In this document: positions 10,173 through 44,844 of the stretch, piece after piece
Layout: every line of letters begins with the position of its first letter
Position numbering within the stretch: position 1 is the stretch's first letter
Assembly: GCF_040183065.1 (NCBI RefSeq)
Contig: NC_091132.1
Span: 165,382,102 to 165,446,101, forward strand
Direction of reading: 5' to 3'
Source of the DNA: Periplaneta americana
Lineage: Eukaryota > Arthropoda > Insecta > Blattodea > Blattidae
Length of the DNA stretch: 64,000 nt
Translations under genes and position numbers: made by a program
Notes under the pieces: model-generated
Told to the model about the DNA's origin: nothing
Seen by the model: only the letters and a program-made list of their open reading frames with translations
The model's database searches: none

Positions 10173-10265
10173 ATGGATGTGATCAAGGCGGAACTCGAGG
10201 TCGACCCACTGTCTCTAGAAACAGGTGACGACACAGATGAGGATGAGAAGAAACCTTTATTAGAG
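10173..10265 (+). CDS. ZNF-B coding exon 1
   Basis: A polypyrimidine tract and ctttcag acceptor end at 10167, then ttacgATGG starts a 31-codon acidic exon beginning MDVIKAELEVDPL and ending KKPLLE before the donor gtatatt. The same exon, with the same acceptor, start context and length, opens ZNF-C at 36848. It contains IKAE, a SUMO-consensus motif. A non-coding 5' exon must lie upstream; I could not place it for this gene. Confidence 0.9.
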
Positions 10266-10946
10266 GTATATTATAAGCCATTACTATCTGCTTTTTTATA
10301 TGCGACATTTATATAAATATAAATTTACTTTACAACATAAAGTGTTCATCTCTGAAATTATATTCAATGGACTTAATAAAAAAAATCTTGCAGATTCTCG
10401 TTTTCCTTGTCACCATAGCACATCTTGTACATATTTTTACGGGTAAACCATTTGAGAATTGATCAGAGTTCTTAATTTAGAATAAAGTTTACAGGAAGCT
10501 TTATTGAAACTTTTTTTCATAAACCATTCTCACTTTTTAATATTTTACAACATGTCTGATGCAACACTTGTTATAAACTAGGCCATATTGACATCTGTAG
10601 CATCCATATGTTGCAGCACATATGCCTTCAACTTCTACTTGCGACCTCTTTAGTTACCTAACATACGAGTATGTATAATCTTTTTCTTTATAGTTTTTCT
10701 AAAATAAATCGTATTTTGTAAACTATGTATAGGATCGGCACTTAATACGCTGGCTTGCAATGTAACTTATGAGATTAAAATGTGATTACCTGGGTTGATT
10801 TTTTTTTTTTTTTTTTTTTGTGGTTGATCATTTGCGATGCATGTGTAAAATATAATTAAATGTTTCACAACGCATTTAGTTTTCAAGTAGTTGCAGAAGG
10901 ATAGTATAGAAGGTCCAGCAGCTTAGCAGTGTATTAATTATTAGCG

Positions 10947-10991
<45 letters not shown>

Positions 10992-11159
10992 TCCTACCAA
11001 TTTTTGTTATTGTCTAAGTAACATTTAACTAACTTCCATTATTCACTTTCATGCTTTTTACGGTCTAAATATTAATGTAATAACTATAACAATGTAAGCC
11101 AGTTGTATTCATTAACTTAGTGAGCATGATGAAAATTGTTCACATTGTCAATTAATATA
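10266..11159. other. ZNF-B intron 1, first part, with a (TTA)n microsatellite
   Basis: No coding sequence is seen. It contains a T run at 10799-10820 and a pure TTA/ATT microsatellite at about 10947-10991. Confidence 0.6.
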
Positions 11160-11868
11160 GATAAATACAATATAATATTTGTTACTCAGTCAAATGACAA
11201 ATCAATGTAAATAATGACTTATATTATATGATCATTAAGTTTTATACACATAAATTACATATTGCAAACGTTTTCGCCCATTCAGGCATCTTCAGGTACA
11301 ATTATACAATATCTCAATATCAAACTGTATAGTCATTACATTGGTGGTAGGTAAACTATTTAAAATTGATGATGTACAACATCTCCATAATTAAAATTTA
11401 ATGTTACAGGTCATAAAATTAAAATAATATTAAAATTAGAAACAACGTAGTGTTATGATTTAAACTTCATAATATTCTGTGGAACTGTTGTTCAGTAGAG
11501 TTCAATGATTGATGGGTTATTCTGAAATATATAAATATAAAATAGAGGTGGCAAATTATCAAATTTAAAAGTACGATTGGAATGGATAAAGAAAGTACTC
11601 ACGTCGTTTGAACGTGGCAACTGAAACATCCTACATTTGAAGTAGTTATCTGTAAAGAAATAATAAATCAAAATTTTGAAGAATTTGAAAATGATTATAA
11701 ATGTTAATTTATAAGCGTACTTACGAAGATGTGAGACGTCCTGCTGCTATCGGACCTGTAGCTAATATGACGTGGGCGAAGTGAGTGTTCGTGTAAACAA
11801 CTATAGCGGAAGGATATTGCGTTGTCATTTGACTGAGTAACAAATATTATAGGCCTATTGTATTTATC
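11160..11868. mobile_element. MITE with about 40-bp inverted ends and TA target site
   Basis: The ends GATAAATACAATA ... TATTGTATTTATC are inverted, and the inner parts ATATTTGTTACTCAGTCAAA also match in inverse (right arm with a small insertion). TA flanks both sides (11158-11159, 11869-11870), as expected for Tc1/mariner-type elements. There is no transposase frame in its 709 bp. Confidence 0.7.
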
Positions 11869-12007
11869 TACAGTTGTATTCAGTTAGAATATTAGACTCT
11901 CGCTGGGCGGAAAGAAGGCCTATTGGCCTTAGCTCTGCCAGATGAAGTAAATAAATTATTATTATTACTTACTTCATCATATGTTTCTGTTCTTCGAGAA
12001 GTTCATT

Positions 12008-12275
12008 GAAGCCACTCGCATGCCTCAGTTGGCTAAGACGCTTGCCTGCCAATCCAGAGTTGCGCGGGTTCGATTCACGCTTGGCCTGATTCCCTGGTTT
12101 GATTTGTCCGTGGCTTTCCCGAACCATAATGTGAGTGTTACATAATCTGTGTCGAGAGCTCTGCCTCATGTCTCCAAATACCATCTCTCTATCACCAATC
12201 CCATCGACGGAAAATAATCTAGTAGTTGTTGCACCATCATTAAATAATCAAGTAAAAACATTTAATTCATTAAAA
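12008..12275 (+). mobile_element. tRNA-headed SINE, family 3
   Basis: A tRNA-like head (gcctcagttggctaagacgc, B-box gggttcgatt) is followed by the family body (ccaaataccatctctctatc, ccatcgac, aataatctagtagttg) and an A-rich tail. Other copies are at 31690 and 62452. It lies in ZNF-B intron 1. Confidence 0.85.
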
Positions 12276-12350
12276 CTGCATATGAGTAATGTTTTTGCAC
12301 AGGTTATATACATTTTCATATGAATCCTGACCCTATTCGTCATAGTGTAA

Positions 12351-13408
12351 GGCCAGTAACTCACTTGTAGAGTTTTCGCCAGTGAGAAATGTATTCCGAG
12401 AAATTAAAAAAATTGATAGCATGGATTCAAATGGACGTCTACACACTGGAAGAGATTCTCGCTCAAGGCAAAAACCTCGCGCGAGTTTCTCGCTGGAATC
12501 GGCAGCTCAGCTAATTGTCTTGACTCATTTATCAAAGATGTTTTACATTTATACTCTTTATGACGATTGAATGTAGAAAAAGATATCATAGGTGGCGATA
12601 AATTGCATTGTTTTTATTTCAAAATGAGGAAAGATGGCTGATAATTGCAGTCAAACAATTATAGAACTTGTACGATGTCACCCATAGGCCTATTTATATG
12701 ATACACGGGATGAAAACTATAAAAACACGAAACTTAAAGAAGAAATCTGGAGACAAATATCAGATATTCTCAAAATAAATAGGGCTATATTTTATTTTGA
12801 TGAGATTTAATAGTATTGATTAAACATTTGAAATAATGCATCTGTGTATCTTAACAGTTTACGTAATTTTAAGTAATCAGAATATAGCAAAGATTTCTCT
12901 ATCATATCATGAATGGCAACAAAAAAAAAACTGTGTTCAATTGAACCTGAAATAACGCCCAAACTTATCATCATTCAAATGGAAACCATTGTCCAAAACT
13001 CGCCCTTATTTTCGTAAGATACAATGTGATTTTCAGATATTTCTGTGTTTAATTTTAGGCCTACTTCATCTTTTCAAGAACAAAATATTTTCATGTAACT
13101 CCATTTCATCATCATCTGAATACTCAGATTCAACTTAGCGTTCGTACGTAATTTGTAAAGTACGGCAATATACTTACAGGTTATATATTTAAGTACGACA
13201 ATATACGTAGATACATAACGTATAATATTTCCCCCGAGTGATTACTATAATCAGATAATTGCTTTGTGCATGAAGGCAGTGCATAGATGATCATAGCGAG
13301 ATGTGATCTGTGATAGCGAGAACTCGCCAAGTGTGTGGAGGAGGCTCTTCGCCTCTTTCTCGCAACACATTTCTCGCTGGCGAAAACTCTGCAAGTGTGT
13401 TACGGGCC
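12351..13408 (+). mobile_element. PIF/Harbinger-like transposon, copy 1, with MADF remnant
   Basis: The terminal repeats start GGCC(A/C)GTAACNCACTTG and read inverted to GTGTTACGGGCC, about 50 bp each. TAA flanks both sides (12348-12350, 13409-13411), the trinucleotide target duplication typical of PIF/Harbinger. Inside at about 12656-12780 the plus strand reads IIELVRCHP, stop, AYLYDTRDENYKNTKLKEEI. This is a MADF/Myb-SANT-like DNA-binding domain with one in-frame stop, matching the second ORF of Harbinger elements. There is no DDE transposase frame. Copies 2 and 3 (28490, 40013) are in the opposite orientation. Confidence 0.8.
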
Positions 13409-13538
13409 TAAAGCACGTGTTTTGGTTTTTATTGAGGCTGAGGCGTATCAACAAATAGGGAGCAGCTTATAACAATAGTAGTCGTCTTCTAACACCCTGT
13501 AATAAATTGTTCATTCTATATATCTGTTTGTACTGCAG

Positions 13539-13676
13539 GAACGGAATCTTTTGCATCAGCCTATGACAGATATAAAGGAGGAATATGAGGACCAGTGCCA
13601 TGATCTCACATCTGAGATAAAATTTGAGGAAGATCCGGTGCCAGTTTCGTTCCCTGTGGTGAAAGATGAACCTGAG
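13539..13676 (+). CDS. ZNF-B coding exon 2 (SUMO-motif cassette)
   Basis: The acceptor tttgtactgcag ends at 13538 and the donor gtgagtgga starts at 13677. The exon is 46 codons, phase 0 at both ends. The acidic peptide starts ERNLLHQPMTDIKEEYED and ends PVVKDEPE. It holds three SUMO-consensus sites: IKEE, IKFE and VKDE. The last, in FPVVKDEPE with a proline on each side, fits the synergy-control form. It is homologous to ZNF-C exon 3 (44704). Confidence 0.88.
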
Positions 13677-14489
13677 GTGAGTGGAGCACAAGGAATGCAC
13701 TGTGCGTTCTACTTCCAGTTTTTATCTTGCATTTTGATTCTAACAGACACTACCTATTTACAACAGTACTTGTAGTGCCTTTTACTCTATGCTACAGACA
13801 AAAAACTTAAAACAATTTTTTATTACAAGTGATGTCATGTTGCAGAGAACTAATGTTGGAATTTTATCACTGTTTATGTTTCAAATACGAAAAAGAAATT
13901 GCTTGTCACGCTAACTCTTCATTGTTGAAAAGCAAGACATTCCCACAGCGTGTTTGAAAAAATGTTGTTATTAAGGGCATGACTTCTTCTTGTCTTCTCT
14001 GTGTCTTTGTCCAAAATTCTTAATACTTTTTACCATTTCCAAATAATTGATTTTGCTTAAATTTATCTACAAACATTATCTTCTGGCTTAGTCTGTTTAT
14101 GACCTCTTGTTTTTAAACATTTTTTTTTTTTTTTTTGCAGTTTATATTCTTTGTAGAACATGATGTTATCCGTAGAGAAAAGATATTTTAAAACTTTACG
14201 ATAAAATATGTAGCTGATTTTGAGTGAATTCCAGAATACGTTCTAAATTCTGCAATATGTTCTGATACATACGTGCAGGTACAGCATGCAAGGAACTGTT
14301 TACTCTTATTCTGTCAGTGAATTGCGTTTATTTTTAATACAAGTGGACAAACGTAAAATTAGAAACATCAATTTACCAATTTTAAAATGACTAGAAATAA
14401 AATATGAATTTCAATTTTCTTGTTCTTCTTATGAGTAGACACCAAATTAGTTGAAATTCTCGGGAAAGTTATCAATTGTATTGTTTTGT
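13677..14489. other. ZNF-B intron 2, first part
   Basis: No gene or clear repeat is recognised. A T run lies near 14122-14138. Confidence 0.5.
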
Positions 14490-15440
14490 ATTGTATTTAT
14501 TAACAGTCCATGGAATTCATACATTGCTTTACAGCTAGGATATGGAACAAGTAAAAAAACTTAATACTATTATAAAGTCTTACTTTATAGTCACAGTCTA
14601 GATAAAATATATACGGACGAGATTTACAATATAGTCTACTAGTACAACACAAAAGTTTTAGTATCAATATCAGGAAGTGTTATTGAATGTCATGAATTCA
14701 CCTACAGATTAGAAGGTGTGAGAAATTAGATACTTCTTTAATTTGGCCCTAAATAATCTTATGTTTTGAGTTTCATTTTGTATATCGATATGGAGGCTAT
14801 TAAAAATTTTTACTGCCATCTAACGCACTCCTTTTTGATAGCATGATAGTCTTGCCGATGGAGTATGAAAGTAATTTTTTGACGTGTATTTATGCTGTGA
14901 ACTGTTGAATTAGTTACAAAGTTTTCACGATTACATACGAGGAAGATTATTAATGAAAAGATATACTGACAAGCCATTGGCATTATTTGTAGTTTTTTAA
15001 AATAGTCCTACACGATTCCCTAGACTTGGCACATACATTATCCTAATTACTCTTTTTTGTAATAGAAATTATTGTTACTATCTGTGGAATTTCCCCAGAA
15101 TATTATTCCTAAACTCATTATCGAGTGGATGTATGCAAAGTATATTGTTTTTAAGGTATTGATATTTACTGTCTTTTGCATAGATCTAATAGCAAAACAA
15201 GCTGAATTTAGTTTGGGGTAATTTCTTTAATATGATTTTTCCAATTTAACACATTATCGATTTTTAAGCCAAGAAATTTGGTTGTTGTTGTTTCTAATAG
15301 GGATCTATTGTTAATTATTGCGCAATAAATTTGCGAGGTTGAATTTGGACAGTATTTAAATTGAATTATGTTAGTTTTGTTACAATTTAATACCAATTTA
15401 TTGACTGAGAACCAGTCATTACAGTCATTAAATGGTTGAA
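14490..15440 (-). mobile_element. LINE reverse transcriptase C-terminal fragment
   Basis: The minus strand reads MVLNCNKTNIIQFKY, FLGLKIDNVLNWKNHI, then (frame kept with stops) NTLKTIYFAYIHSIM and IIFWGNS. This is the thumb region that follows the catalytic domain in CR1/Jockey-type LINEs. It has many stops towards its 3' end and is dead and 5'-truncated. Confidence 0.7.
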
Positions 15441-15985
15441 CTTTTTTTTTTTACCTTGGGATTTCATTGAAGTGGATTTTTATGGCAGGCAGAGTAACTA
15501 TCTCATGCCTCCATGTTTAAATTGCTTTCAGTGCACTTCATTAGAATCAGGTACCCAGCTTCGAAGCCGTTAGCCCTGTGAACTTACAGTATATTTATTT
15601 TCCCCTATTATCATAGTACAGGTTATCTAAGAAATTAACAAGTTCTTTGTGATAGTACAAGAGAAAGAGTGGGGAAGTGGTCCGTGGCCCATTTCTTTTA
15701 GGGCTCATCCCGACATTTGTCTATTGCTCAAGGGAAACCACGGAAGAACCTTGAGCAGGATGAGGTGTCGTGCTGACGACAAGCCAGTTGGCTACAATGG
15801 GGTTATGAATATTGTGTGGTGGGAGGGTGTCATTTAATCATCATTTAAAGTGCTGCAACATTAAAATACATATTAATTATTTACAAAGAATAAAAAGCAT
15901 CTATGCAGCCAATAGCGTGATGACCCTGAAACAGAGAAATTACATTATTAGTGCATTTATAGATTATGTCTGTCCATAGAGTCAA
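15441..15985. other. Unassigned, probably repeat-derived
   Basis: A plus-strand frame near 15649-15837 includes SFRAHPDICLLLKGNHGRT and DDKPVGYNGVMNIVWWEG but has no domain I can name. Its composition (GC-richer than neighbours, lying between LINE pieces) suggests repeat origin. Confidence 0.3.
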
Positions 15986-16650
15986 GTGGTTGTCTAGTGT
16001 TCAAGTTGCTATTCGTCTTGTACGTTGTCGTTCCAAGCTAAATGGTGGAGTACGTTCTTAGGTCGTTTGTGCTTATCTAAAGCAGGGTTGTAGTTACCGA
16101 GGGAGGAAACTAGTGGGTTGTTGCTGCTGTACGACTTGGTGTACGTGCAGAAGGCTTGATGTGAGATAAATTCTTGAATTGTACAAATTTCTAGTTCCGT
16201 ATGAATCAATCTAACTGGTGTAACTCTAGGTAGGCCTGTAACGAATCTTAAAAGTTTGTTTTGGAAAACCTGTAATTTTTTAAGAACTGTAATAAATGCG
16301 TGTCCCCAAGTGGCACAAGCATATAATATTACTGATCTGATTAAAGTTTTATACAAAATCAAGGCTGTATGTATGTTTAAATGTCTGCTTTTATTTAAAA
16401 TTGGGTACAGCTCCACCATTCTAGAATTGGCAAGTCTGAGTTTCTGTTGTACGTGTTCAAGAAACGTAAGCCGTCTGTCCAGTGTCACTCCGAGATATTT
16501 TACTGAAGTTTTCCATTGGATTTGTGATCCATTTTGTGTGATTTATTCCCGGTCTATTGAATTTATTTCTTCTGGTTGAATTTCTTTTCTGAACCAGACC
16601 AGTATATACCTGGTAATGTAAAAATGTTAAGCAATACAAAGACATAGTTT
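15986..16650 (-). mobile_element. Jockey-like LINE C-terminal fragment
   Basis: The minus-strand frame 16009-16488 reads TLDRRLTFLEHVQ, then NIHTALILYKTLIRSVILYA, CATWGHA and LQVFQNKLLRFVTGLPRVT. This is the characteristic region after the reverse transcriptase of Jockey elements. The upstream part lies in another frame (16457-16645), so there is at least one frameshift. It is 5'-truncated. Confidence 0.8.
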
Positions 16651-16689
16651 AGACAATGTTACAAAAAGGGGAGTTCTACGAATTTCTTG

Positions 16690-16920
16690 TCCAAAGGTGT
16701 GGTGTTATGATTACCATGTCTGACCGCAAAATTGGTGCACCTGTGTCCAGATACTGGTGGGAACAAGTTACCTATTTCAAATTTTTTCTGAGGTTATTTC
16801 TTATACTTTTCAGAGCAAATGCTGGGTAACTTGCGGCAATGGACAATGAAATCGTTGTGCTGGCATTATGACTTTAATTTCACTAAGACATTAGATAGCT
16901 AAAGTGTCGTAAAATAAAGC
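16690..16920 (+). mobile_element. Degenerate SINE, family 1
   Basis: Family words survive in order: caagttacctat, gcaaatgctgggtaact, ctggcattatgac, gtcgtaaaataaa. The tRNA-like head is barely recognisable. This is an old copy. Confidence 0.65.
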
Positions 16921-17577
16921 TTTTACAAAATCCACCAAATTCGTCACTTGAAATTGAATCATTCGTCCATAAATAACTTCTGCTATTATACAGTAGTTAA
17001 AATAGTTATTCTAGAACAATCATTATCCTCCAGTTTGCCACGGCACACGTGAAAGTTCCGCTGGTGTGCGGAAGACTTCCGAATGCGGCTCAACTCAGCC
17101 TCCAGTAAACACAGTGTAGGTGTGTGAGCAGCAGAGAAGGAATGACTGACACACATCTAGGGTAGCCAGATTAGTAAAATTGGGATGTCGTGCCAATCTT
17201 TAAAAATATCGTCTTCTACTTGGCTTTATGAAAGACAATGTCTCGTGGATTAAATGCCTTAGGAACACATGTAATGGTATTGTATGTTCTCAAATTTCCC
17301 AAATAAAGAAATTTCCACGCTGATATTGAGTTGTAATAATTTTCTGTCATTCAGGTTTGCGTTTCTATCATGGACATTAAATAAAGTTACAAAAATTGTG
17401 TTATTTTTATTTGTGAATAATATGTTTTTTTTTTCTTTCTTTTGCACCAGGCACCTTTTCACCATTCTCGATCTGTTGACTTATAAATAAATCATATGAA
17501 ATCGAAAATGTATTTAATATATTAATGCATATACATATACCTCATTTATTTGTATTTTATAGTATATTCATTTGTCC
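16921..17577. other. ZNF-B intron 2, no gene recognised
   Basis: Only low-complexity short frames occur, including an F-rich one. Confidence 0.4.
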
Positions 17578-17825
17578 ACACATATGGAGTAACGGTTAGG
17601 TCATCTGGCTGCGAATCCAGATGGCACAGGTTCGATTCCCAGCCGGGACAAGTTACCTGGTTGAAGTTTTTCTGGGGTTTTCCCTCAACCCAATAAGTGC
17701 TAATGCTGTGTAACTTTCCGTGCTGGACTCCAGAATCGTTTCACCGGCATTATCACCTTCATCTCATTCAGAGGCGAAATATCTTAAGATGTTGATAAAG
17801 CGTCCTAAAATAACCTACTTAAAAT
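17578..17825 (+). mobile_element. tRNA-headed SINE, family 1
   Basis: The head is tggagtaacggttaggtcat with B-box ggttcgattcc, followed by the shared body (caagttacctggttga, tttcaccggcattatcacct, gtcctaaaataacc). It lies in ZNF-B intron 2. It is not a tRNA gene: only the head resembles one and the body is the SINE family. Confidence 0.85.
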
Positions 17826-18131
17826 GAAGTATACTCATTTCCTCGCAAAACCCTCGACATTCCGCTTGGTAACAACCGATTATATAAGTGTGTTACAGCA
17901 TTTTAAACTAGTAGTACATCTTTAGTGTGGAACATGTTAAAAGATGTAAGAAAAAAAAGAAAGCTGTTCTACAAGAAAAAGATGTGCCCCATGAATTGTA
18001 TGTCCCAAGAATTGTCTTTTATTAGCTAGATTCTACTAGGCCTAATAAGACTTAAGTGCAGTTGTGTGGCAACTAAAATCGATGCGCTTTTATTGATGCA
18101 ATCTTTTTGTTTTTTTGCTCTGTATTTGTAG

Positions 18132-18205
18132 GAAGAGCAGAGGGACTTCAATGAGGAGCCAGGGGTGGAAGTGACGGCAGAGAAAACCGAAGTTTACGCT
18201 GTAAC
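18132..18205 (+). CDS. ZNF-B coding exon 3
   Basis: The acceptor gtatttgtag ends at 18131 and the donor gtgagtg starts at 18206. The 74-nt exon reads EEQRDFNEEPGVEVTAEKTE and VYAV and ends with two bases of a split codon. These join the first base of the zinc-finger exon at 21730 to give T, and the frame stays open. The peptide is acidic and has no known domain. Confidence 0.85.
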
Positions 18206-18764
18206 GTGAGTGTTTTATATTAGTCCTCACGTAGTGAGTTCATTGTGTCTGAAATGTCCGTTTTCTTGACTGTTCATAAACACCATAATACATTCAATAG
18301 GAGCTTATGCAAGTCCTAAATCTCCTACAGACATATGAAATACTTCTCTCATTTGAGTCACTGAATGCTTTAATGTCGTTGAGTACGACTGTACTTACGT
18401 GTAAAGCAAAGAAAAAGAAGTTTGGTAAGGCCATATACTTTTATAGTTGTAAATTACATTCTTGCAGATCTTTGAAAGCATTATTACTGGTTTAACCTTT
18501 GCAAAACAACAACATACCAAGTTAGAGATAATACAAATACAAATTCTCCCTTGACTGTTAGACTTTAAAAAAGGAATAGCTATGTTAAACTCGAAGTTAA
18601 ATATGCATTTATATATGGATTTGTTCAATGTTGGCCATAGCCATAGCCATAGCCTATCTTTCTCGTTGACCAATTAAACGATACGAAAGGACGTGTTTCA
18701 ACCAATCATGTCTGATTATCGCTACAATTTTACCACTTTCCTAGAGTTTGTTTCTTTTTATCAG

Positions 18765-19250
18765 GTCCCTAGCATTCCTTTCTTTGTTTGCCAACATTTC
18801 AAACTGCAGATTCTTTACGGCACTATAAAACATACTTCGCAATCGTTTACCGGTAGACAATCAATTGAAAATGGCAGCTTTCTTCAAACGTTTTGGTGAA
18901 ACTAACATTAGTGTACCAGTAATATAATTTTACTAAGTCAGTTAATATCTATTTAATTGTATTAGAGTACTTTATTTCTTCTAATCTTTATACACTTTCT
19001 TCTGTTTTTGATACCTCCCTACCATTTGTTTCTTTGGTTGCCAACATTTCAAACTGCAATTACTTTACGGTACTATAAAACATACTTTGTGATCGTTATT
19101 TATTTACCGCATACATAGTCAACTGAAAATGGCGACTCTGTTTAAACATTTTAGTGAAGCTGGCATTAGTCAAATAGAATTTTAGAAGTCAATTAATATC
19201 TTATTGTATTAGAGTTCTGTATTTCTTCTAATCTTCATATACTTTCACGT
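18765..19250 (+). repeat. Two-unit direct tandem duplication of about 245 bp
   Basis: Unit 1 (about 18765-19010) and unit 2 (about 19015-19250) share ccaacatttcaaactgca, ttacgg(c/t)actataaaaca, tgaaaatggc and gtattagagt in the same order. They have diverged by scattered substitutions and indels. The duplication lies in ZNF-B intron 3. Confidence 0.8.
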
Positions 19251-19404
19251 AGTCGTGTAATAGTCAATTAAATCTCACTCAAGTTTTTCTTTTCTCTACA
19301 TAAATCAAAAATTTCTGTGAGATTACTGTTGATAATACTTAATACAAACGGGACTCAGAAATGTTCCAGTGCCAAATTTTAAAGTGACCAACTTAACAAT
19401 ATAT

Positions 19405-19670
19405 AAACAATTTGTATATCACAATAATAAGGGATAGAAAAGTTATGACATATTTGCAATACCGAATATCAAAACAATAGCAAAAAATAACATGCTTATG
19501 TCGTAATAAAAAAGTAAAGCAAGCCAGGTGACTTTGGGCAGAGATGTTTGTTAAAAATAAGTCCTACCTAAGAGTTCAGTAACGTTCTGTAATCCTTACG
19601 AAATTTGTTATACAAGTGAAGTCCAAATTGTTGAGAATTTTGATACTTGGAACATTAGTCTTATATTATT
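19405..19670 (+). repeat. Intron segment shared with ZNF-A (duplicate of 1110-1377)
   Basis: Colinear with 1110-1377 in the same position relative to the zinc-finger exon. Just downstream, ZNF-A has the fold-back repeat while ZNF-B has a LINE, so different elements entered near the same point after duplication. Confidence 0.8.
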
Positions 19671-19671
19671 T

Positions 19672-21545: not shown

Positions 21546-21729
21546 TGTTGGTTACGTTTTTTTTCAATATCTTTAAAAAAATATTCTTCACTCATTCTTT
21601 TTCTGCATAAATTATTTACAAGAATGAATCCCTAATGGTAATATATGGATTAGTTTTGATTTGAATATTCAATAATTGAATGTATATTTGTTGTGACTAT
21701 TTAATAGATTTATACTATATTTACTTCAG

Positions 21730-23704
21730 GATTGAAGCTACCGATGACAGGAAAGTGTCATCAGATTTCGACAGTTTTTCAGTTGAAGAGAACGAGACTG
21801 TGTGTCAGATTCCCAAGAATTCAGGTTCCTCGGGAAAACCTGTGCGGTCTCGTGACGATGAAAAGCAACTGGAATTTGAATTGCCTAATATTTGTTTCTC
21901 TAAGTCGGCAAAACTGAAGAAGAAACCTTTCACATGCGATATTTGTCATAAGTGTTTTTCAAACACAAGAAACTTAAAAGCTCATGAACGTGTGCACACA
22001 CACGAAAAACCTTTTAAATGCAATGTTTGTAATAAGTGTTTCTCTCAGTTGTCTAGCCTAAGAAGTCATGAACGACTGCACACAGGCGAGAAACCTTTTA
22101 AATGTGATGTTTGTGGCAAGTGTTTCCGTCGTTCCAATACCCTCAATAACCACAAACTTACCCATTCAGGCGAAAAACCTTTCATGTGCGCGTTTTGTGG
22201 TAAGTTTTTTTCGTTATTGGACACTTTAAGAAACCATGAACGCATACACACGGGCGACAAACGCTTCAAATGTGACGTTTGTGGCATGCATTTCTCGCAA
22301 TTGAGTAAATTAAGATCCCATCAACGTTGCCGTCACACAAACGAGAAACCTTTCAAATGCGAATTTTGTGATTTGTGTTTCTTCGAGTCTAGGAACCTAA
22401 AAATCCATATTCGACGCCACACAGGTGAGAAACCTTTCGTGTGTGATGTTTGCGGTAAGTGTTTTCATGAGTCGCGCAATTTAAGAATACACGGACGTAT
22501 CCACACGGCCGACAAGCCATTCAGGTGTGATGTTTGCGGTAAGTGTTTTCATGAGTCGCGCAATTTAAAAATACACGAACGTTCGCACACGGCCGAGAAA
22601 CCTTTCAGGTGTGATGTTTGTGGTAAATGTTTCTCGGACCCTAGTTACGTAAGAACACATGAACGCTCGCACACTGGCGAGAAGCTGTTTAAATGCGATA
22701 TCTGTGGTGTGAGATTTTCCGTCTTATCCAGCTTGAAAAGACATCTTATCCGGCACACTGGTGAGAAACCTTTCAAGTGTGGTCTATGTGGTAAGTGTTT
22801 CACATTTTCTCGTAGCCTAAGAAATCATGACCGCGTGCATACAGGCGAGAAAGCTTTCAAGTGTGATGAGTGTGGTAAGTGTTTGTCGAATCCGAGGAAG
22901 TTGAGGGACCATCAACGCGTGCACACAGGAGAGAAACCCTTCAAATGTGGTGTTTGTGGTAAGTGTTTCTCGCATTGGGATAGCCTGAAGAGCCATAAAA
23001 ACTTGCACTCTGAAAACAAATCTTTCAAATGTGATATTTGTGGGAAGTGTCTCTCGGATTCCAGGTGCCTCAGGAACCATAAACTCCAACACACAGGCGA
23101 GAAACCTTTCAAGTGTGATGTTTGTGGTAAGTGCTTCTCGGTTGCAAAGGTGCTAAGAGACCATAAACGCCAACACGAGAGGGCTTTCAAATGTGAAGTT
23201 TGTGGTAAGTGCCTCTCGGATTCTAGGAGCCTGAAAGACCATGAAGGCCAGCACACAGGTGAAAAACCTTTCAAGTGTGATGTGTGTGGTAAGTGTTTCT
23301 CGGTGCCAAGAGGCCTTAAAAAGCACGAACGCAGACACTCAAGCGGAAAGCCTTTCAAGTGTGATGTTTGTGGTAAGTGTTTCTCGGAATCTTCGAGCCT
23401 AGGATTGCATCAGCGCCGACACTCAGGGGAGAAGCCTTTCTTGTGTGATGTTTGTGGTAAGTCTTTCTCGGTTTCGGCAAACCTTAGAAACCATGAACGC
23501 CAACACACAGGTGAGAAGCCTTTTACGTGTGATGTGTGTGGTAAGTGTTTCTCGCAGTCGAGGGGCCTAAAAAAACATGCAAGACTGCACACAGGCGAAA
23601 AGCCTTTCAAGTGTAATGTATGTGGTAGGTGTTTTTCGGATCCGAGTAGCCGAAGAAGACATGAACTCCGGCACACGGGCGAGAAACCTTTGAAATGCAC
23701 CTAA
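21730..23704 (+). CDS. ZNF-B terminal exon: 21 tandem C2H2 zinc fingers
   Basis: Main domain of a predicted 759-residue nuclear DNA-binding protein. The acceptor ttacttcag ends at 21729 and the one-base phase fits exon 3. A linker (VCQIPKNSGSSGKPVRS, FSKSAKLKKK) precedes fingers from about residue 169 to the end, each C-x2-C-x12-H-x3-H. Finger 5 has H-x4-H (HQRCRH). Most linkers are TGEKP; that between fingers 15 and 16 is shortened (QHERAFKC). Nearly all fingers read CGKCF, with an extra Cys two residues past GK's G. Fingers 7 and 8 are near-copies (FHESRNL). It ends EKPLKCT then TAA, and remnants of one more finger follow. Tandem TGEKP arrays of this length bind long DNA sites. With the acidic SUMO-motif N-terminus I infer a transcriptional repressor; targets are unknown. 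Confidence 0.93.
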
Positions 23705-23955: not shown

Positions 23956-24559
23956 GAGAACGCCTATATAGTTAAAATACATACTTTGAAGTTGAGCATT
24001 CACAACTAACAAGAAACTTGCTCGGTAGGAAGTTGATTCTGTGTGTTGCCATCATAAAACTCTTTTCTCATCGTATTTTTTGTGGCATAAAGGCCGTAAC
24101 GTGATATCTCTTCATCATGTCTAATACAGAAATTCAATACAATTGCTTTCACTATTATTCTACGTATGTCTGACCAGTCTACCTCGTCACTTCAATTCTT
24201 AAATATTCTGTGTCATAAATTTTGTAGTTTATTAACCAACTGTTGTTTGTGTTAACTGGCTTGCACTCTTGAAAGTACGCAATTCTTCAAATATGCACAA
24301 GTAACATCAGAATAGGTAGTATCTACTTCACATATCGTTATTCACATGCATTGTCTTTTCTTCTCTTAGTTTATTGTAAATAAAAAAGGACTTGTATTCA
24401 TACAATGTAGTTGTCAAATTTTTACATGTTTGTCATCTTACTTATGTGTACTCATTCATGACTATAAAAATATGTAAAGAAATATCTAACAGGGTGAAAT
24501 GAAGTTTTGCGCTACTAAAACTATGAAATATAACGGGATTTATGAATTATAGTGTACTA
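23956..24559. other. Intergenic, no gene recognised
   Basis: No supported coding sequence. A second AATAAA lies near 24377. Confidence 0.4.
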
Positions 24560-26781: not shown

Positions 26782-26798
26782 AACACTGATAGTCATTG

Positions 26799-29528: not shown

Positions 29529-29531
29529 TAA

Positions 29532-32053: not shown

Positions 32054-32085
<32 letters not shown>

Positions 32086-34983: not shown

Positions 34984-34991
34984 ATAATAAC

Positions 34992-36842: not shown

Positions 36843-36847
36843 TTACG

Positions 36848-36940
36848 ATGGATGTGATCAAGGCGGAACTCGAAGTCGATCCACTGGCTCTAGAAACAAG
36901 TGACGACTCAGATGAGAAGGAGAAGAAATGTATATTAGAG
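36848..36940 (+). CDS. ZNF-C coding exon 1
   Basis: 31 codons, MDVIKAELEVDPLALETSDD to KKCILE, with acceptor ctttcag and leader ttacgATGG identical to ZNF-B exon 1, and donor gtatatt. It is acidic and contains the SUMO-consensus motif IKAE. The first 13 residues are identical to ZNF-B, which suggests constraint on the N-terminus. Confidence 0.9.
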
Positions 36941-37662
36941 GTATATTATAAGCTATTCTATCTATTTTGTTCATGCGACATGTGTCATTTAGCTACCTTA
37001 TGACAGAAGATATACACCTATCAAATTATAATTAACAGACTTAGCCAGACTGAAAAAAAAAAATGGCCTGGAGATCCTATTCTCCTTTGTCATCATATCG
37101 CATAGTTTTCTATATGTTTGACGTATATAAGCAATTGAGAGTTGATCAAATCGTGTAATTTAACGTACAGTTAACAGTTAGATTTATTGTATGTTTATTT
37201 TATAAACCATACATACTTTCTAATTTTTCACATGTCTAATGGAATATGTTAGTAATAAACTAGGTCATCTTTTAAGTAAAAGTTCACACTTACGAGTACA
37301 TATGTAGTAGAATGCATAAGGTGCAGCAGATGCGGCGTGAACTTCAAGTTGAGACTGTTTAGCTCAGACCTGCAGAACTGTAGCTCCTCAGAGCGACCGC
37401 CTTACTACCCATTCTGCCCTACCAACCTTTTCTAGCAGTGTAATCATAGTGTTCTAGTTATGCTCGGCTGCATCAACATTCTCATGGCGGCAGGTACACA
37501 GTACACTATCTAGAATTATAAATGAACAGATAATAAAATCCTTGGTAACATACCTTTGGAAAGTAAGAGACAAACGAATGAGGGAAATATATGAGTTAAA
37601 AGACATGTAAATTAAATTTTAAGGTGTATGTGTGCACATATAGTGAGAAGGTCTTACATACT
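36941..37662. other. ZNF-C intron 1, first part
   Basis: No gene or recognised repeat. Confidence 0.45.
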
Positions 37663-38755
37663 TACTTACTTACTTACTTACTTAGAAATGGCTTTTAAGG
37701 AACCCGAAGGTTCATTGCCGCCCTCACATAAGCCCGCCATCAGTCCCTATCCTGTGCAAAATTAATCCAGTCTCTATCATCACTCCCCACCTCCCTCAAA
37801 TCCATTTTAATATTATCCTCCCTTCTACGTCTCGGCCTCCCCAAAGGTCTTTTTCCCCTCCGGTCTCCCAACTAACACTCTATATGCATTTCTGGATTCG
37901 CCCATACGTGCTACATGTCCTGCCCATCTCACACGTCTGGATTTAATGTTCCTAATTATGTTAGGTGAAGAATACAATGCATGCAGTTCTGTGTTGTGTA
38001 ACTTTCTCCATTCTCCTGTAACTTCATCCCTCTTAGCCCCAAATATTTTCCCAAGAACCTTATTCTCAAACACCTTTAACCTATGTTCCTCTCTCAGAGT
38101 CAGAGTCCAAGTTTCACAACCATACAGAAGAACCGGTAATATAACTGTTTTATAAATTCTAACTTTCAGATTTTTGGACAGCAAACTGGATGATAAGAGC
38201 TTCTCAACCGAATAATAACACGCATTTCCCATATTTATTCAGCGTTTAATTTCCTCCCGAGTGTCATTTATATTTGTTACTGTTGCTCCAAGATATTTGA
38301 ATTTTTCCACCTCTTCGAAGGATAAATCTCCAATTTTTATATTTCCATTTCGTACAATATTCTGATCACGAGACATAATCATATACTTTGTCTTTTCGGG
38401 ATTTACTTACAAACCAATCGCTTTACTTGCTTCAAGTAAAATTTCCGTGTTTTCCCTAATCGTTTGTGTATTTTCTCCTAACATATTCACGTCATCTGCA
38501 TAGACAAGAAGCTGATGTAACCCGTTCAATTCCAAACCCTGCCTGTTATCCTGAACTTTCCTAATGGCATATTCTAGAGCGAAGTTAAAAAGTAAAGGTG
38601 ATAGTGCATCTCCCTGCTTTAGCCCGCAGTGAATTGGAAAAGCAATCAGATAGAAACTGACCTATACAGACTCTGCTGTATGTTTCACTGAGACACATTT
38701 TAATTAATCGAACTAGTTTCTTGGGAATACCAAATTCAGTAAGAATGTCTACTAT
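37663..38755 (-). mobile_element. LINE, (AAGT)n-tail family, copy 3
   Basis: On the minus strand the reading includes [10 protein letters not shown] (catalytic box intact here), [53 protein letters not shown] and WAGHVARMGESRNAYR. A stop replaces Glu in the V-NPEKTKY region and frame changes follow. The 3' end carries a clear (CTTA)n, that is (TAAG)n, tail. It is 5'-truncated near 38755. Confidence 0.88.
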
Positions 38756-39066
38756 GTATATATCGCCCTATTTCTAGTAAAATCGATTAAGTCCACTTTT
38801 TGTGTAAAATAGGTTAAGCACAGTCCCTGACTTGTCTTTCCGTGCATTAATATAAAGTTTTAGTTCCTGCTTTTACAAAATTTGCATTACTGGACTTAAC
38901 TGGTTTTACTAGTAATTGGACGATATATAAATTGTATGTTGATAAGTGAGTGATAGCTATATGACTGGAGGTCAGTGCTGTCATTAAAAATTGTAACGCA
39001 TTGCAGCCAAATAGATAAATAAATAAGTACACAATAGGCGTACTGCAGTTTGAAGAGAACTGGAAA

Positions 39067-39252
39067 ATGGCAAAATATAAACCCGTGAAGAAGTGATACC
39101 TTCAAAGGAAAGGGGATTATGATTATTTTGTTGTTGAAGAAGATGAAAGAATTGCTTGTTTACTGTGTATCATCCAATTTATTTCTACTCGTCATTTCAA
39201 TATTAAACAACATTTCAACAAAGCCCATATTATGGAATGGACGAACTTTCGG
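39067..39252 (+). pseudogene. BED-finger (ZBED/hAT-derived) exon with nonsense codon
   Basis: From ATG 39067 it reads MAKYKPVKK, TGA stop, then YLQRKGDYDYFVVEEDERIA and CLLCIIQFISTRHFNIKQHF-NKAH. This gives a C-x2-C ... H-x4-H BED-type finger as found at the N-terminus of hAT-derived GTF2I/ZBED-like proteins. A strong donor, cggGTAAGT, ends the frame at 39252. Further related sequence (ERRKVF-like, KNLKQAECKEIMKKLPAGNL) follows at about 39405-39490. A TGA at codon 10, likely from CGA, makes it a pseudogene unless a downstream start is used. Confidence 0.65.
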
Positions 39253-39499
39253 GTAAGTTCAGTATTAGGAACTGTATATTGATTATTTATTTATATAGCG
39301 TTAAATTAAGGACATCATGCGGTGTGTTCATTTTGAATTGAAATTAATAGTAACTTTCAAGGTTCATTACTTAAAATACTATAAATTTATGTTTCCGTAG
39401 GTGATGATAGGAGGAAAGTTTTCAAAAATCTAAAGCAGGCTGAGTGCAAAGAAATCATGAAGAAACTGCCGGCAGGAAATCTAGAATAATTGTAAACCT

Positions 39500-40012
39500 T
39501 GAAACGACATAACGCATTATAAATACAATAACTTTATTACAATCCTTTTTGAAAATTACAATGCCGCCACTGATAGAGCTTGCACGCGCAAAGAATGTAA
39601 ACAACCTACGCAGAAGTCGATCATCCCCAGTACAAGTGGAGTGAGGATAACGTCATATTTCCCCTACTTACGATTTCTGCAAGCCTGGTTCAGCTACTAA
39701 ATGTATTTTCTTTTGCTCTTGTTACACCAAATGAATTTTGTAAACTGTTTACAGGATGGACACTGCAACTTAAAACATTATTATGTGATTGAATACCTGA
39801 CTATTCTATGAATGTCTGTGATTTTATTGACGATCATTTCTAGTGTGTGTGGAAAATTTAATTACACGTTTGACTGCAGATTTACATTTTAAGTAATTGC
39901 AACAGTGTAATATATAAGCAATATAGGAGTAGGCCTATATTAATTATAGGTGGTAACTTCTGCTTGTGGTGTTCCTGAATTCGTGTGGACTACCATGCCG
40001 TTGTCTTGGTAA
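39500..40012. other. ZNF-C intron 1, no gene recognised
   Basis: No supported feature. Confidence 0.4.
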
Positions 40013-41322
40013 GGCCCATAACACACTTGAAGAGTTTTCACTAGCAAGAAATGTGTTGCAAGAAAGAGGCGAAGAGCCTTCCTCCACACACTTGGCGAGT
40101 TCTCGCTATCACAGATCACACCTCGCTATAATCATCTATGCACTGCCTTCAGGCAGAAAGCATTTATCTGATTATAGTAATGACTCGTTCGGGGAAATAT
40201 TATAGGTTATGTATTTTCGTATATTGTCGTACTTAAATATATAACCTGTAAGTATATTGTCGTATTTTACAAATTATGTACGAACGCTATGTTGAATTCT
40301 TAGAATTCAGATGATGAGGAAATGGAGTTACTTGAACATATTTTGTTCATGAAAAGAAGAAGTAGGCGTAAAATTAAAGCCAGAAATATCTGAAAATCAC
40401 ATTGTATCTTACGAAAATAAGGGCGAGTTTTGGACACTGGTTTCGATTTGAATGATGATACGTTTAGGCGTTATTTCAAGTTCATTGGACCACAGTTTTT
40501 TTTTTTTTTTTTTTTTTTCCATTCGTGATATGATAGAGAATTCTTTGCTATATTCTGATTAAAATTACGTAAACTGTTAAGACATATAGATACATTATTT
40601 CAAATGTTTACTCAATACTATTAAATCTCATGAAAATAAATAAATATAGCCCTATTTATTTTCAGATAATCTGATATTTGTCTCCATATTTCTTCTTTAA
40701 GTGTCGTGTTTTTATAGTTTTCATCCCATGTATCATATGAATAGGCCTACGGGTGACATCGTACAAGTTTGGTAAGTTTCTGACTGCAATTATAAGCCAT
40801 CTTTCCTCATTTTTCAAAATAAAAACAATGCAATTCATCGCCACCTGTGATATCTTTTTCTACATTCAATCGTCATAAAGAGTATAAATGTCAAACGTCT
40901 TTGATAAAAAAGTCGACCTGGTTGGCGAGTTGGTATAGCGCTGGCCTTCTATGCCCAAGGTTGCGGGTTCGATCCCGGGCCAGGTCGATGGCGTTTAAGT
41001 GTGCTTAAATGCGACAGGCTCATGTCAGTAGATTTACTGGCATGTAAAAGAACCCCAGTGGGACAAAATTCCGGCACATCCGGCGATGCTGATATAACCT
41101 CTGCAGTTGCGAGCGTCGTTAAATAAATCATAATATTCTTTGATAAATGTGTCAAGAAAATTCGCTGAGCTACCGATTCCAGCGAGAAACTCGCGCGAAG
41201 TTTTTGCCTCGAACGAGAATCTCTTCCAGTGTGTGGACGTCATTTGAATCCATGTTATCAATTTTTAATTTTCTCGCAACATATTTCTCACTGGCGAAAA
41301 CTCTTCAAGAGTGTTACGGGCC
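40013..41322 (-). mobile_element. PIF/Harbinger-like transposon, copy 3, with a nested SINE
   Basis: The ends GGCCCATAACACACTTG ... GTGTTACGGGCC are flanked by TAA (40010-40012, 41323-41325). The minus strand shows the decayed MADF region around 40660-40790. A poly(T) run (about 40495-40518) is an added low-complexity expansion. A SINE occupies 40909-41136; without it the length is close to the other two copies. Confidence 0.85.
40909..41136 (+). mobile_element. tRNA-headed SINE, family 2, nested in Harbinger copy 3
   Basis: It is nearly identical to 26551-26781. It is flanked by the 11-bp duplication tctttgataaa (40898-40908, 41137-41147). The homologous place in Harbinger copy 2 (about 29340-29352) holds that word once, giving a clean empty site. 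Confidence 0.93.
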
Positions 41323-41325
41323 TAA

Positions 41326-42679
41326 GGCATGAGATCTTGGCTGGGTTGAATTTCGTAATGTTTTGTGTTCAGTGCTTTTCTCTTTAGGCCGGTTACACAC
41401 TACAGTGAGAGGTATGAACTATGTAATGTGAGGAAACGGCTTAGCTTAGCCTAAGTCTCTATTTACACTAGCTCAGGGCCGTATTCATAAAGGGGACTTT
41501 GGATGAAGACTTCCCAAAGTCGACTTTCGTAGTAAAGTTTAACTTTGTGAAAAGTCCTATTCATAGACAATACTTCTGAGACTTTGAATTTGACTTCGCT
41601 AAGTCGAGATTCGACGATCTTGTTCTAATGTTGGCAATCAAAATCACTGCCCTCTAAACGAATTAAATTAATAGACATTTGAAATAGAGTAGGCATTGCC
41701 ACAATCAAAGCCATCTTTTGAGTCACAAATCAATGAAACAATTGAACATCAGTACATGTTAAATAATTGTTAATAGTTCTTGCAGCTTTACATAATAAAA
41801 ATAATATTACTCGAGGGTTTATTGTGAAACTAACGTAAGTACAAAAATTGACATTTTTAAGTCTTTACACCAATCGATAATAATTTGTTTTTCTACTTGG
41901 CCACAAAAAATCGTAACTCAGTTCGAACAGTCTTGTATATAACACAATTCATAACTACAAAACATGATGGTATAGTTTATCTGAAATAGTATTGCCTGTT
42001 AAGAATTTTGTTGTGAAAATATGAAAGATAAGATTCCACCAATGACAGACTATGAAAGAGACATATTATCCTGCTGACAGTTGGCAGAGTTATTCCCTGC
42101 ATGTCTGCAGAATCTACTTAAAAACTATCTGAAATCAATATGCAGAAAACATTATTAAGACGACCGCAGGATTATAAATGAACTGCATTTCCAACTGTAT
42201 AACCTATCCTCTATAGAATTAAATAGTAAGAATCAATATTAAGCTATTAATCCCTACCTACAGCGTAAAATCGCGATGAAATAAGTTGTATTTTTTATTA
42301 GTGGAACAGATAATCCTCTTTGATTATTCATCAATGAAAGTTGAAACATGACGAGGATATTTAATACTGTCTATCAAGTCTGTACCTTGATTTGAATTTA
42401 TAACATATAATAATACGCTAAGGAACTTGAGCAGCTTTAGTAATCTCCTAGATGTCTTCAATATTCTCGGAAAACTTACACTATGTGTGTAAAAAGCTTT
42501 TCACAATCATTGTATACAGCTGTTAAGATCCTGGACTCCCTGTAATCCGCATTCTTTTTATAATTTCTCTCCTGTGCGTGACATTATGGCCAAACACTGA
42601 TCTGGAGAACAGTTAAAATCAAGTTAAAAGTGGGTACCTACTAAAAATTACTCATTTATGATATCTCTTTCCTCCCCAG
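41326..42679. other. ZNF-C intron 1, last part
   Basis: No gene recognised. At 41484 the word gggccgtattcataaa resembles one end of a MITE family but no partner end was found. Confidence 0.4.
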
Positions 42680-42763
42680 AGTGTGCAAATATCCACTCAG
42701 ATAAAGATTGAAGGCGAAGACAACATCTATGATCTCTCATCAGAGATGAAATATGAGTCTCAG
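42680..42763 (+). CDS. ZNF-C coding exon 2 (extra cassette)
   Basis: The acceptor tcctccccag ends at 42679 and the donor gtgagtgga starts at 42764. The 28 codons, phase 0-0, begin SVQISTQIKIEGEDNI and end EMKYESQ. It contains IKIE, a SUMO-consensus motif. ZNF-B has no separate counterpart, so this looks like a cassette gained by ZNF-C or lost by ZNF-B. Confidence 0.75.
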
Positions 42764-42821
42764 GTGAGTGGAGCTTATTGGTTATAGTCCGGGTCAGCTT
42801 ACTTCATACCCAAATAGCCGT

Positions 42822-44350
42822 GTGCACCATTCTCGATCTTTTAGCCCATTTATCTACAATCACGGAAACATGGTTAATTCTTGACAATGATCAGGTTACA
42901 GGTGCGGTGCACCGACATTTTCCCTCGATCAACTCAGTACCGTCTGCTGAAGGTACGCTTGCTTGAGAAGAATCATCTGAGCGCTAGGTTACCGCGTATA
43001 AAACAGCGAACGGACACACTCTGTCAATTATCGCTTCGTTTTTGTTTGTCGGACTGTTTCAAACATCCTCGCAGTTTTCAAATAACAAGTTTCAATAATC
43101 ATGGAAGAAAAAAAGAAAAGAGCACCGAACTTCTCACACTTCGAATTGGGAATTCTTTTAGAACTCTTCAGCAATTCTGTTCTGCATCCATATTAGAGAA
43201 TAAAAGTACTGACGGAAGTTCTCTAAGAGAAAACCTGACTACCTGGTTGGATTTAACCTCACAATTCAACATGAGTTATACGTGTTTACATAATTCCACA
43301 TAATTTGTAACGTAATTTATACAGTGGTTATTTCATATTATTGATAATAATTGGAAAATTTTCAGTATACAGATACCTCACTGACAATTATCTTGAAATA
43401 TGCTACTAAAAAGAGCAGATTTGTATGTGTTTGTCGAATGCTCATCATCTTGCTTACGAAAAGACACATTTCGGTGCCAATAATTTATTTGGGAAAATTT
43501 CAGTATACGGATACCTCGCTAACAATTATTAGAAAAAAAAAACAATTCGTCTGTGTATGTCGAATACGCATCATCATGCATACGAAAAGGAAGTTTTTAG
43601 TGCCAATTTATTTTGTATGCACATGGTTGGAATTTTGGAGTAAGAGGGAAAGGAAAGTACAGTATCCTTGTTCTGAAATTTATCCATTTATTTTGTGTTC
43701 ACAAGGTTGGAATTTTGGAGTAAGAGGGAAAGGAAGGTATCCGTGTCATTTCTCTTAATTCAAGCGTAAATAGCCTAATTGTCCAAAACGTCATGTCGGT
43801 CCTAATAGTTTCAAACGACAAATCTATAGCTAATAACTGATAATCTCGCATTCTACAAAATGGTAATTTAGTTTTACTATATTATTACCGGCATAGAATA
43901 ACTACTTTATCATTATATTAACAAAATTGGACAGTTAGCCCTAAATAATATTTTGTCCTCAAGTAAAGTCCCGATCTTCGAAAGCAGAAACATATAAAAA
44001 AAACATTAGTCCATTTTGAGAAAAAAAAAAACATTTTTATTATTCATCTGCAAACTTACTCTTTCTACAATAACACAATTTCTGTTATTTCCGCAGTGAT
44101 TTGCGTGTTAAAAATACATCATTTCATCTTCAATTCCACCAAGTACGTTAAATCGTGCCGCCATTTTGGTTTTCTCGACTTGACCATGTTCAATTCAAGA
44201 TAATCGGTCCCACACCCATGATCAAATTTGATCATCATCAACTCGCTTGTTTAACTTTGATTGAGATTGATACTCCGCAAATTGGGGTTGAAGATGGTCA
44301 AGTGCCGACTTAACCTTGGTCAAATTTTAATCGAGAATGGTGCACACGGA
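42822..44350 (+). mobile_element. TIR transposon remnant with Myb/SANT-like reading frame
   Basis: The left end CCGTGTGCACCATTCTCGAT has its exact reverse complement at 44331-44350. From ATG 43101 one frame reads MEEKKKRAPNFSHFELGILL-ELF and, after a frameshift, a second reads ILENKSTDGSSLRENLTTWL-DLTSQFN. Together these give the layout of a Myb/SANT-like domain typical of Harbinger accessory proteins. The target duplication is unclear. It lies in ZNF-C intron 2, 58 bases after the exon. Confidence 0.65.
43359..43740 (+). repeat. Two consecutive short tandem duplications
   Basis: Units at 43359-43494 and 43497-43625 share agtata(c/t)(a/g)gatacctc, tcatcat(c/g) and acgaaaag. Then ggttggaattttggagtaag occurs twice (about 43624 and 43705), each followed by agggaaaggaa. 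Confidence 0.75.
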
Positions 44351-44703
44351 CATAAGGGTAAAAGCTAACCATTTTTCCCCCATTACTACATATGCTACTG
44401 GATTGTGGTGACTTTCTAGTTTGCAGGTTGAATTCCCTTTTGCAAACTTCGTTTCGAATTCCAAACATGATGTAGAATATAAATCAGATTCTGTTACACA
44501 TATTACAGTATGCAAATTGTTTTCAGATGGAACACCTGGTCTATTATTTCTGCTTTAAGATCTCAATTCTATTCTGCCTTAAATTTTCTTCTCTAATTTG
44601 TTGCCTGATTTGAGGGAGTTAGCCAATGACTGTCGCTTTTACACATGAAGTCAACTTTAAAATAGCTAAATAGATGTATTCACGATGTCTTTATGTTCTG
44701 TAG

Positions 44704-44844
44704 GAAGGGAATTTATCGCATCTGGAAGTGACGGACATGAAGACAGAATGCAGGGACAACAATCATGTTATAAAAACAGAGATAAAAGTTGAAGACACTA
44801 CTCCAGTGCGTACTAGCTTTCCTATGGTGAAATCTGAAGTTGAT
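44704..44844 (+). CDS. ZNF-C coding exon 3 (SUMO-motif cassette)
   Basis: The acceptor gttctgtag ends at 44703 and the donor gtaagtgg starts at 44845. The 47 codons, phase 0-0, begin EGNLSHLEVTDMKTECRD and end PMVKSEVD. Four consensus sites are present: MKTE, IKTE, IKVE (adjacent pair) and VKSE. It is homologous to ZNF-B exon 2, and the lysine motifs are retained although the surrounding residues differ. Confidence 0.88.

Follow-up and report, generated by a model that had tools for sequence, protein, structure and literature searches.

Exon structure of ZNF-B and ZNF-C

The stretch of DNA analysed here, referred to as the window, comprises 64,000 nucleotides of the 3.23-Gb genome of the cockroach Periplaneta americana (G000:C16:165382102-165446101). 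It contains three C2H2 zinc-finger genes, all on the plus strand, designated ZNF-A, ZNF-B (10173-23704) and ZNF-C (36848 to 54467). The N-terminal exons of ZNF-B and ZNF-C carry repeats of psi-K-x-E, the sequence that the SUMO enzyme Ubc9 recognises directly, and the conservation of these lysine-motif exons suggests a silencing tail unlike the mammalian one. In window coordinates, the exons are as follows.

10173..10265, +, ZNF-B exon 1, coding part (MDVIKAELEVDPL...LLE): IKAE; donor GTATAT; phase 0
13539..13676, +, ZNF-B exon 2, cassette: IKEE, IKFE, VKDE(P); 138 bases; phase 0-0
18132..18205, +, ZNF-B exon 3, acidic linker: phase 0 to 2; without psi-K-x-E
21730..23704, +, ZNF-B exon 4, charged spacer and C2H2 finger array: 21 fingers by pattern
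36848..36940, +, ZNF-C exon 1, coding part (MDVIKAELEVDPL...ILE): IKAE
42680..42763, +, ZNF-C exon 2, short cassette: IKIE, MKYE; 84 bases; phase 0-0
44704..44844, +, ZNF-C exon 3, cassette: MKTE, IKTE, IKVE, VKSE; 141 bases; phase 0-0
49167..49249, +, ZNF-C exon 4, acidic linker: phase 0 to 2; QKME, without psi-K-x-E
53726..54467, +, ZNF-C exon 5, C2H2 fingers to the first in-frame TAG: 7 fingers by pattern
2149..3016, +, ZNF-A finger exon: spacer 61% identical to that of ZNF-B over 72 residues

ZNF-B exon 2, ZNF-C exon 2 and ZNF-C exon 3 are mutually homologous and all of phase 0-0; they are called cassettes below, and ZNF-C has one more than ZNF-B. The internal exons of both genes are preceded by AG and followed by GT, and exon 1 has an AG five bases 5' of the ATG. 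In ZNF-B, exon 2 ends in phase 0 and the finger exon starts in phase 2, and joining them directly produces an immediate stop. A scan of ZNF-B for an open acidic exon leading from phase 0 to phase 2 between an acceptor and a donor, filtered by length, pyrimidines and acidity, returned a single candidate, 18132-18205. Both linker exons match similar stretches beside other cassettes (e.g. at loci L015, L019 and L023). An earlier description made from the letters of the window (the sequence-only reading) was right about the exons it gave and about their 0-0 phases, and had omitted the linker exon of both genes.

Spliced with its linker, ZNF-B forms one frame of 759 residues with 21 pattern-matched fingers. 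ZNF-C, spliced likewise, encodes 380 residues with 7 pattern-matched fingers and ends at the TAG at 54465-54467. Its N-terminal tail is intact, but the gene is truncated or decaying in its finger array, since finger sequence runs on to about 55170, past this TAG and a second one in frame at 54549-54551, after which the frame is lost.

The N-termini had been described as lacking KRAB, ZAD and BTB, and the Pfam matches bear this out. In a scan to E 1, none of the three domains was found among all six matches to the first 201 residues of ZNF-B, which were to zinc-finger-type families, or among the best 25 of 30 matches to ZNF-C, which were mostly of the same type. A sub-threshold match to DUF6076 lies at residues 125-170 of ZNF-C. 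No solved structure resembled the ZNF-B N-terminus at E 1; the ZNF-B query in both the Pfam and the structure searches was one residue off (K for T at the exon 3/4 junction). No relatives were confirmed in viral contigs or prokaryote genome contigs, and among the listed titles and abstract openings on SUMO, KRAB, ZAD, FiNZ and the C2H2 proteins of cockroaches and termites none described the cassette family.

psi-K-x-E motifs in the tail exceed chance

Every psi-K-x-E motif previously claimed for ZNF-B and ZNF-C was found in its exon, and MKYE in ZNF-C exon 2 is additional, bringing the total for ZNF-C to 7 from an earlier list of 6. Exons 1 and 2 of ZNF-B hold 4 motifs where 0.32 are expected, and at least 4 were obtained in 8 of 200,000 residue shuffles. 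Exons 1-3 of ZNF-C hold 7 where 0.41 are expected, a number reached in none of 200,000 shuffles. When the linker and the spacer of the finger exon are included, the 4 motifs of ZNF-B stand against 0.66 expected (268 of 100,000 shuffles reach 4); no psi-K-x-E occurs in this spacer or in either linker exon. A fifth ZNF-B motif, VKIE at the exon 3/4 junction, was rejected, as the spliced DNA gives T there and no motif. Comparing ZNF-B exon 2 with ZNF-C exon 3, the K and E of the motifs are identical at 6 of 6 positions, the remaining columns (psi excluded) at 14 of 37.

The N-terminus carries a net charge of -25 over 102 residues in ZNF-B and of -23 over 133 residues in ZNF-C, and both tails fall on the disordered side of the charge-hydropathy line. 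The tail is short, acidic and probably disordered, and assembled from phase-0 exons.

A large family with cassettes probably gained and lost as units

The start ATGGATGTNATNAARNNNGARNNNGAR occurs 223 times in the genome, compared with 4 occurrences of a reversed control. A first-exon pattern with residues 3 to 8 left free gave 265 matches in two spellings (217 + 48; controls 0 and 3). ZNF-B exon 2 had 1513 first-look candidates in the genome and ZNF-C exon 3 had 1045; 150 of each were scored and all of them matched, the weakest at E 2.3e-11 and 3.6e-9, respectively. Of these 300 scored matches, 204 lie on contig C16 and 88 on C17. The end of C16 (about 180-181.3 Mb) and the start of C17 (0-1 Mb) carry look-alike rows of cassettes whose scores and spacings agree, so duplication in the assembly may have raised some counts; perhaps these rows are uncollapsed haplotype copies.

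Tandem C2H2 fingers are present downstream in the window genes. Elsewhere, a finger frame was found in one of two 9-kb downstream stretches (L160 yes; L161, at another gene, no). None was found in 30 short loci around B-type cassettes or in locus L149, which has too little flanking sequence for one to be expected. Judging by these matches, ZNF-B and ZNF-C belong to a very large C2H2 zinc-finger family that has been amplified in this lineage. At one locus (L073, G000:C11:139925970) exon 1 continues into cassette-like sequence with no intron in between, which resembles a retrocopy, and two of three cassette motifs are lost.

When the 300 scored matches were joined wherever they lay on the same strand less than 6 kb apart, 257 groups resulted, 36 of which contain two to five cassettes: 20 a C-type followed by a B-type, 8 BB, 4 CC, 2 BBB, 1 BBBB and 1 CCCCB. 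The BBBB row (L109, G000:C16:182961900-182965500) consists of near-identical exons every 0.85-0.86 kb, and a frame encoding 17 pattern-matched fingers follows within 9 kb (L160). The CCCCB row (L149; G000:C16:180273257-180285315, minus strand) has C-type cassettes every 3.3 kb and then a B-type one; the B-type exon and all but one of the four C-type exons were read directly at L149, and perhaps all five cassettes belong to one gene. Neighbouring cassettes would be spliced together. The proposal that cassettes can be added or lost as units is supported by the phase-0 exons together with the paired and arrayed cassettes.

K and E of the motif are conserved while their neighbours diverge

The check suggested by the sequence-only reading was carried out on paralogues from this one genome: MDVIKxExEVDPL-type starts were collected and cassettes aligned, and psi-K-x-E proved to be kept better than its flanks. 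For exon 1 we counted 148 places (the first 100 of 217 and 48 of 48), found by a search that did not impose the motif, positions 3-8 being free. psi-K-x-E was present in 136 of the 148 (120 of 132 when identical DNA was counted once), with K in 142 and E in 138. The x residue varied (M 44, T 40, K 22 and A 22 of 148), and the commonest residue before psi and after E occurred in 86 and 85 places, respectively. Seven of the 12 exceptions form one subfamily (MDDIKVKPEVDPL and the like; L079-L085, G000:C2:29.10-29.40 Mb), in which K takes the place of the usual E, while the position of the usual K holds K in 4 copies, E in 2 and N in 1. All seven copies have a psi-K-x-E two residues downstream (VKPE, LKLE, MKPE, VKSE, LKSE). 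This is only suggestive of a relocation of the motif, because the search itself required the last E and all seven copies lie close together and are alike.

The cassette alignment comprised 49 B-type, 40 C-type and 14 divergent exons, 103 in all, over 46 columns. The window's own exon 2 (L009) and L010, with an ambiguous acceptor, were left out of the B set, and exon 2 of ZNF-C was omitted as too short. The divergent set was drawn from 58 loci anchored on exon 1 (57 places, L008 and L060 being the same), 14 of which supplied a cassette; the weak match at L008/L060, with IKRE and MKIE present, was not used. Mean identity was 46% between B and C types and 36% within the divergent set. The six motif K/E columns nevertheless rank among the seven of lowest entropy (0.23-0.68), while x is free, so that the earlier claim of lysine motifs surviving amid diverged neighbours holds. 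Mean entropy was 0.43 in the K/E columns versus 1.91 in the 40 others (Mann-Whitney p 7.5e-7, columns treated as independent), and the x columns reached 2.72, 2.22 and 2.94, the x of the third motif being the most variable column of all. A tree of the 89 B and C exons places 0 to 4 residue changes on each K/E column (mean 2.3) versus a mean of 12.0 elsewhere, about five times fewer.

On average a B-type cassette contains 2.88 motifs, a C-type cassette 3.70 and a divergent one 2.29, compared with 0.15-0.16 in shuffles. E-x-K-psi, the motif in reverse, is common too, with 41 in the 49 B-type, 36 in the 40 C-type and 4 in the 14 divergent exons; on inspection of the sequences it overlaps the second motif, which has E two places before its K (EIKF, EIKV). 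The 103 cassettes contain 321 instances of psi-K-x-E, compared with 5 of psi-R-x-E and 2 of psi-K-x-D. K is replaced by R in 2 of 309 cassette cells and in 0 of 148 exon-1 places, E by D in 2 of 309 and 1 of 148. These conservative exchanges are so rare that a modified lysine fits better than mere charge.

This pattern bears on three other explanations of the tail. The first is an acidic activation region whose motifs are a by-product of an acidic composition dotted with hydrophobic residues. The strong negative net charge would agree with it, but shuffles of the same composition yield just 0.15-0.41 motifs, the lysines would be unnecessary, and acidic columns outside the motif swap E and D (column 30, E 0.44 and D 0.42; column 51, E 0.53 and D 0.29) whereas the motif E hardly does; we regard an activation region as very unlikely. 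Scarcely likely, too, are tail lysines that serve ubiquitination or acetylation and set half-life or activity, the glutamate being incidental. The lysines are indeed among the most conserved residues, yet E is here as fixed as K, and neither modification requires psi and E at fixed places. The third explanation, unlikely but the one we would take most seriously, is that the repeats are a docking motif for a dedicated adaptor, as with KRAB and KAP1, repetition providing avidity and SUMO playing no part. Constraint on K and E with a mostly hydrophobic psi could also come from a binding groove, some other columns are well kept as well (D17 0.86, F43 0.86), and the EVDP block served as search anchor at the 265 places. 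Against docking, x is free in all motifs, and exchanges of K for R and of E for D are as rare as one would predict if Ubc9 modifies the lysine.

A proposed multi-SUMO acceptor tail

Our preferred reading, to which we assign a probability of roughly 0.6, is that the tail is a multi-SUMO acceptor that gathers co-repressors at the target of the fingers and silences it. The finger array would select the DNA target, and Ubc9 with a PIAS-type ligase would conjugate SUMO to several tail lysines, of which psi-K-x-E offers one in exon 1 and mostly three to four per cassette. The resulting SUMO cluster would retain co-repressors with SUMO-interacting motifs, of the SetDB1 kind, and the target would be silenced. 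Gain or loss of a cassette would alter the number of SUMO sites with the reading frame intact. SUMO attachment, co-repressor binding, the direction of the effect and the choice of DNA target are here all inferred.

We favour this reading because the tail is acidic and on the disordered side, its motif is the Ubc9 site, SUMO-like genes are present in the genome, and Bonus and Panoramix offer precedents. SUMO-like exons are of two kinds, 2/3-like on C8 and 1-like on C1; they were distinguished by reading translations, as the probe, PF11976, also matches ubiquitin. With this probe a row of separate ubiquitin-like frames was seen at G000:C5:86376809-86403895 (two read, L150 and L159), and matches every 228 bases at C4:99.65 Mb are polyubiquitin-like. 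Drosophila Bonus is SUMOylated at one N-terminal site, with LKND and IKQE as predicted sites, its SUMOylation is required for silencing when tethered, and SUMO-deficient Bonus shows reduced SetDB1 binding (PMC10672805); a SUMO fusion rescues silencing by SUMO-defective Panoramix (PMC13195609).

Several points weigh against this reading. psi-K-x-E is a short motif. Sets B and C were ranked by likeness to motif-bearing window exons and the divergent set was found with a motif-bearing profile, the exon-1 test being the least affected by such selection, and all sequences are paralogues of one genome. Silent change is rare at E14, K47 and E49, with between 0 and 2 steps inferred, and the six K/E columns (steps 3, 1, 4, 6, 2 and 0) average 2.7 versus 4.8 elsewhere, the latter including four-fold codons. 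Bonus binds Mi-2 and Rpd3 independently of SUMO, SetDB1 is mainly with the unmodified, more abundant Bonus (PMC10672805), and Drosophila SUMO sites are not significantly commoner in repressive domains than in other tested fragments (PMC9890238). The effect could also be activation instead of repression. Our confidence is slightly tempered because the silent-site control is mixed and because of the caveats from Bonus.

The silent sites bear on a further alternative, namely that the motif is under no selection and its apparent conservation stems from recent duplication or from codon or splicing constraint. The rarity of silent change at three of the six motif columns would be in line with it, as would the near identity of some exon arrays and the likeness of ZNF-B and ZNF-C around exon 1, which extends into the intron (74% identity over about 495 aligned bases) with a ratio of nonsynonymous to synonymous change near 1, on 10 changes only. 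However, K and E are kept despite the low identity between B and C types and within the divergent set. Among pairs with the same residue, silent differences amount to 0.21 over the six motif K/E columns versus 0.12 at other two-fold codons, and they are high at K12 (0.25), K27 (0.39) and E29 (0.47), where the residues are kept. We consider an absence of selection very unlikely. Since the silent differences come mainly from these three columns, the sequences make protein-level constraint plain for K12, K27 and E29, and further DNA-level constraint is possible at E14, K47 and E49.

Other features of the window

No cassette exon of ZNF-A was seen within the window. Some 17 kb ahead of the window, at G000:C16:165365104, there is a B-type cassette, which we infer to belong to ZNF-A. 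Upstream of ZNF-B exon 1, an open frame at 8920-9477 (plus strand) encodes a complete THAP domain (Pfam E 3.3e-17). Transposase-like open frames are located at 47786-48838 (plus strand) and 56051-57643 (minus strand); by eye, we take the former to be mariner-like, in pieces, and the latter hAT-like, of 530 residues. Fragments elsewhere in the window, e.g. at 26793-27450 and 53087-53506, look reverse-transcriptase-like. Two similar open frames, 24547-24975 (minus strand, starting MEQETVKTQVL) and 59798-60046 (plus strand, starting MEEETVIRQVL), are probably a repeated element.

Comparison with known systems

The system of KRAB zinc-finger proteins and KAP1/TRIM28 in tetrapods shares with the cockroach genes a large, clustered and duplicated C2H2 family with an N-terminal effector before one finger exon. 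It differs in that the Pfam matches listed to E 1 for ZNF-B and ZNF-C include no KRAB, and in that the cockroach finger proteins would themselves bear the SUMO sites, which in the KRAB system belong to a common adaptor: several are known from the C-terminal part of KAP1 (PMC10672805). The ZAD is a zinc-binding domain. ZAD zinc-finger proteins of flies are likewise a large insect C2H2 family with an N-terminal non-finger module (PMC8022714), whereas the Pfam matches listed for ZNF-B and ZNF-C include no ZAD.

Bonus and Panoramix are silencing cofactors and, unlike the cockroach family, not known as an amplified DNA-binding family. As with the tail proposed here, SUMO is needed for silencing by both in tethering tests, and Bonus is modified near its N-terminus, although at one site instead of several (PMC10672805, PMC13195609).

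The synergy-control motif is a psi-K-x-E between prolines, and VKDEP of ZNF-B had been assigned to it. Scored as prolines flanking [IV]-K-x-[ED] on both sides, a third motif of the PVVKxEP kind fits 34 of 49 B-type cassettes, but none of the 40 C-type and none of the 14 divergent cassettes. With the flanking prolines confined to part of the B-type cassettes, the synergy-control form is a subtype feature and not a general one.

Fish FiNZ peptides may also be rich in psi-K-x-E. The FiNZ family of cyprinid fish is lineage-amplified, with 684 members in zebrafish; ahead of the fingers, a separate exon encodes its glutamate-rich N-terminal sequence of 28 residues (Wells et al. 2023, PMC10547256). 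The cockroach family resembles it in being lineage-amplified and in having a short, glutamate-rich or acidic N-terminus encoded before the finger exon; it differs in that the single N-terminal exon of the fish proteins is here replaced by exon 1, at least one cassette and a linker ahead of the fingers. Its authors state that they do not know whether the FiNZ sequence recruits silencing complexes, and no word beginning with 'sumo', 'insect' or 'cockroach' appears in the text of that paper.

Animal lineages repeatedly carry large lineage-specific zinc-finger families, and how their N-termini act is often unexplained. The sequence here points to a testable answer, direct multi-site SUMO modification, with cassette number as a possible natural dose series. 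More tentatively, and with more doubt than belief, one may envisage a KRAB-independent, cockroach-type silencing system of hundreds of genes with countable SUMO arrays tuned by cassettes, the same solution having perhaps arisen separately in fish FiNZ. If true, multi-site SUMO modification would offer a hypothesis for the repressive mechanism of FiNZ proteins, stated as unknown in PMC10547256, and would provide an insect counterpart to KRAB silencing without a dedicated adaptor.

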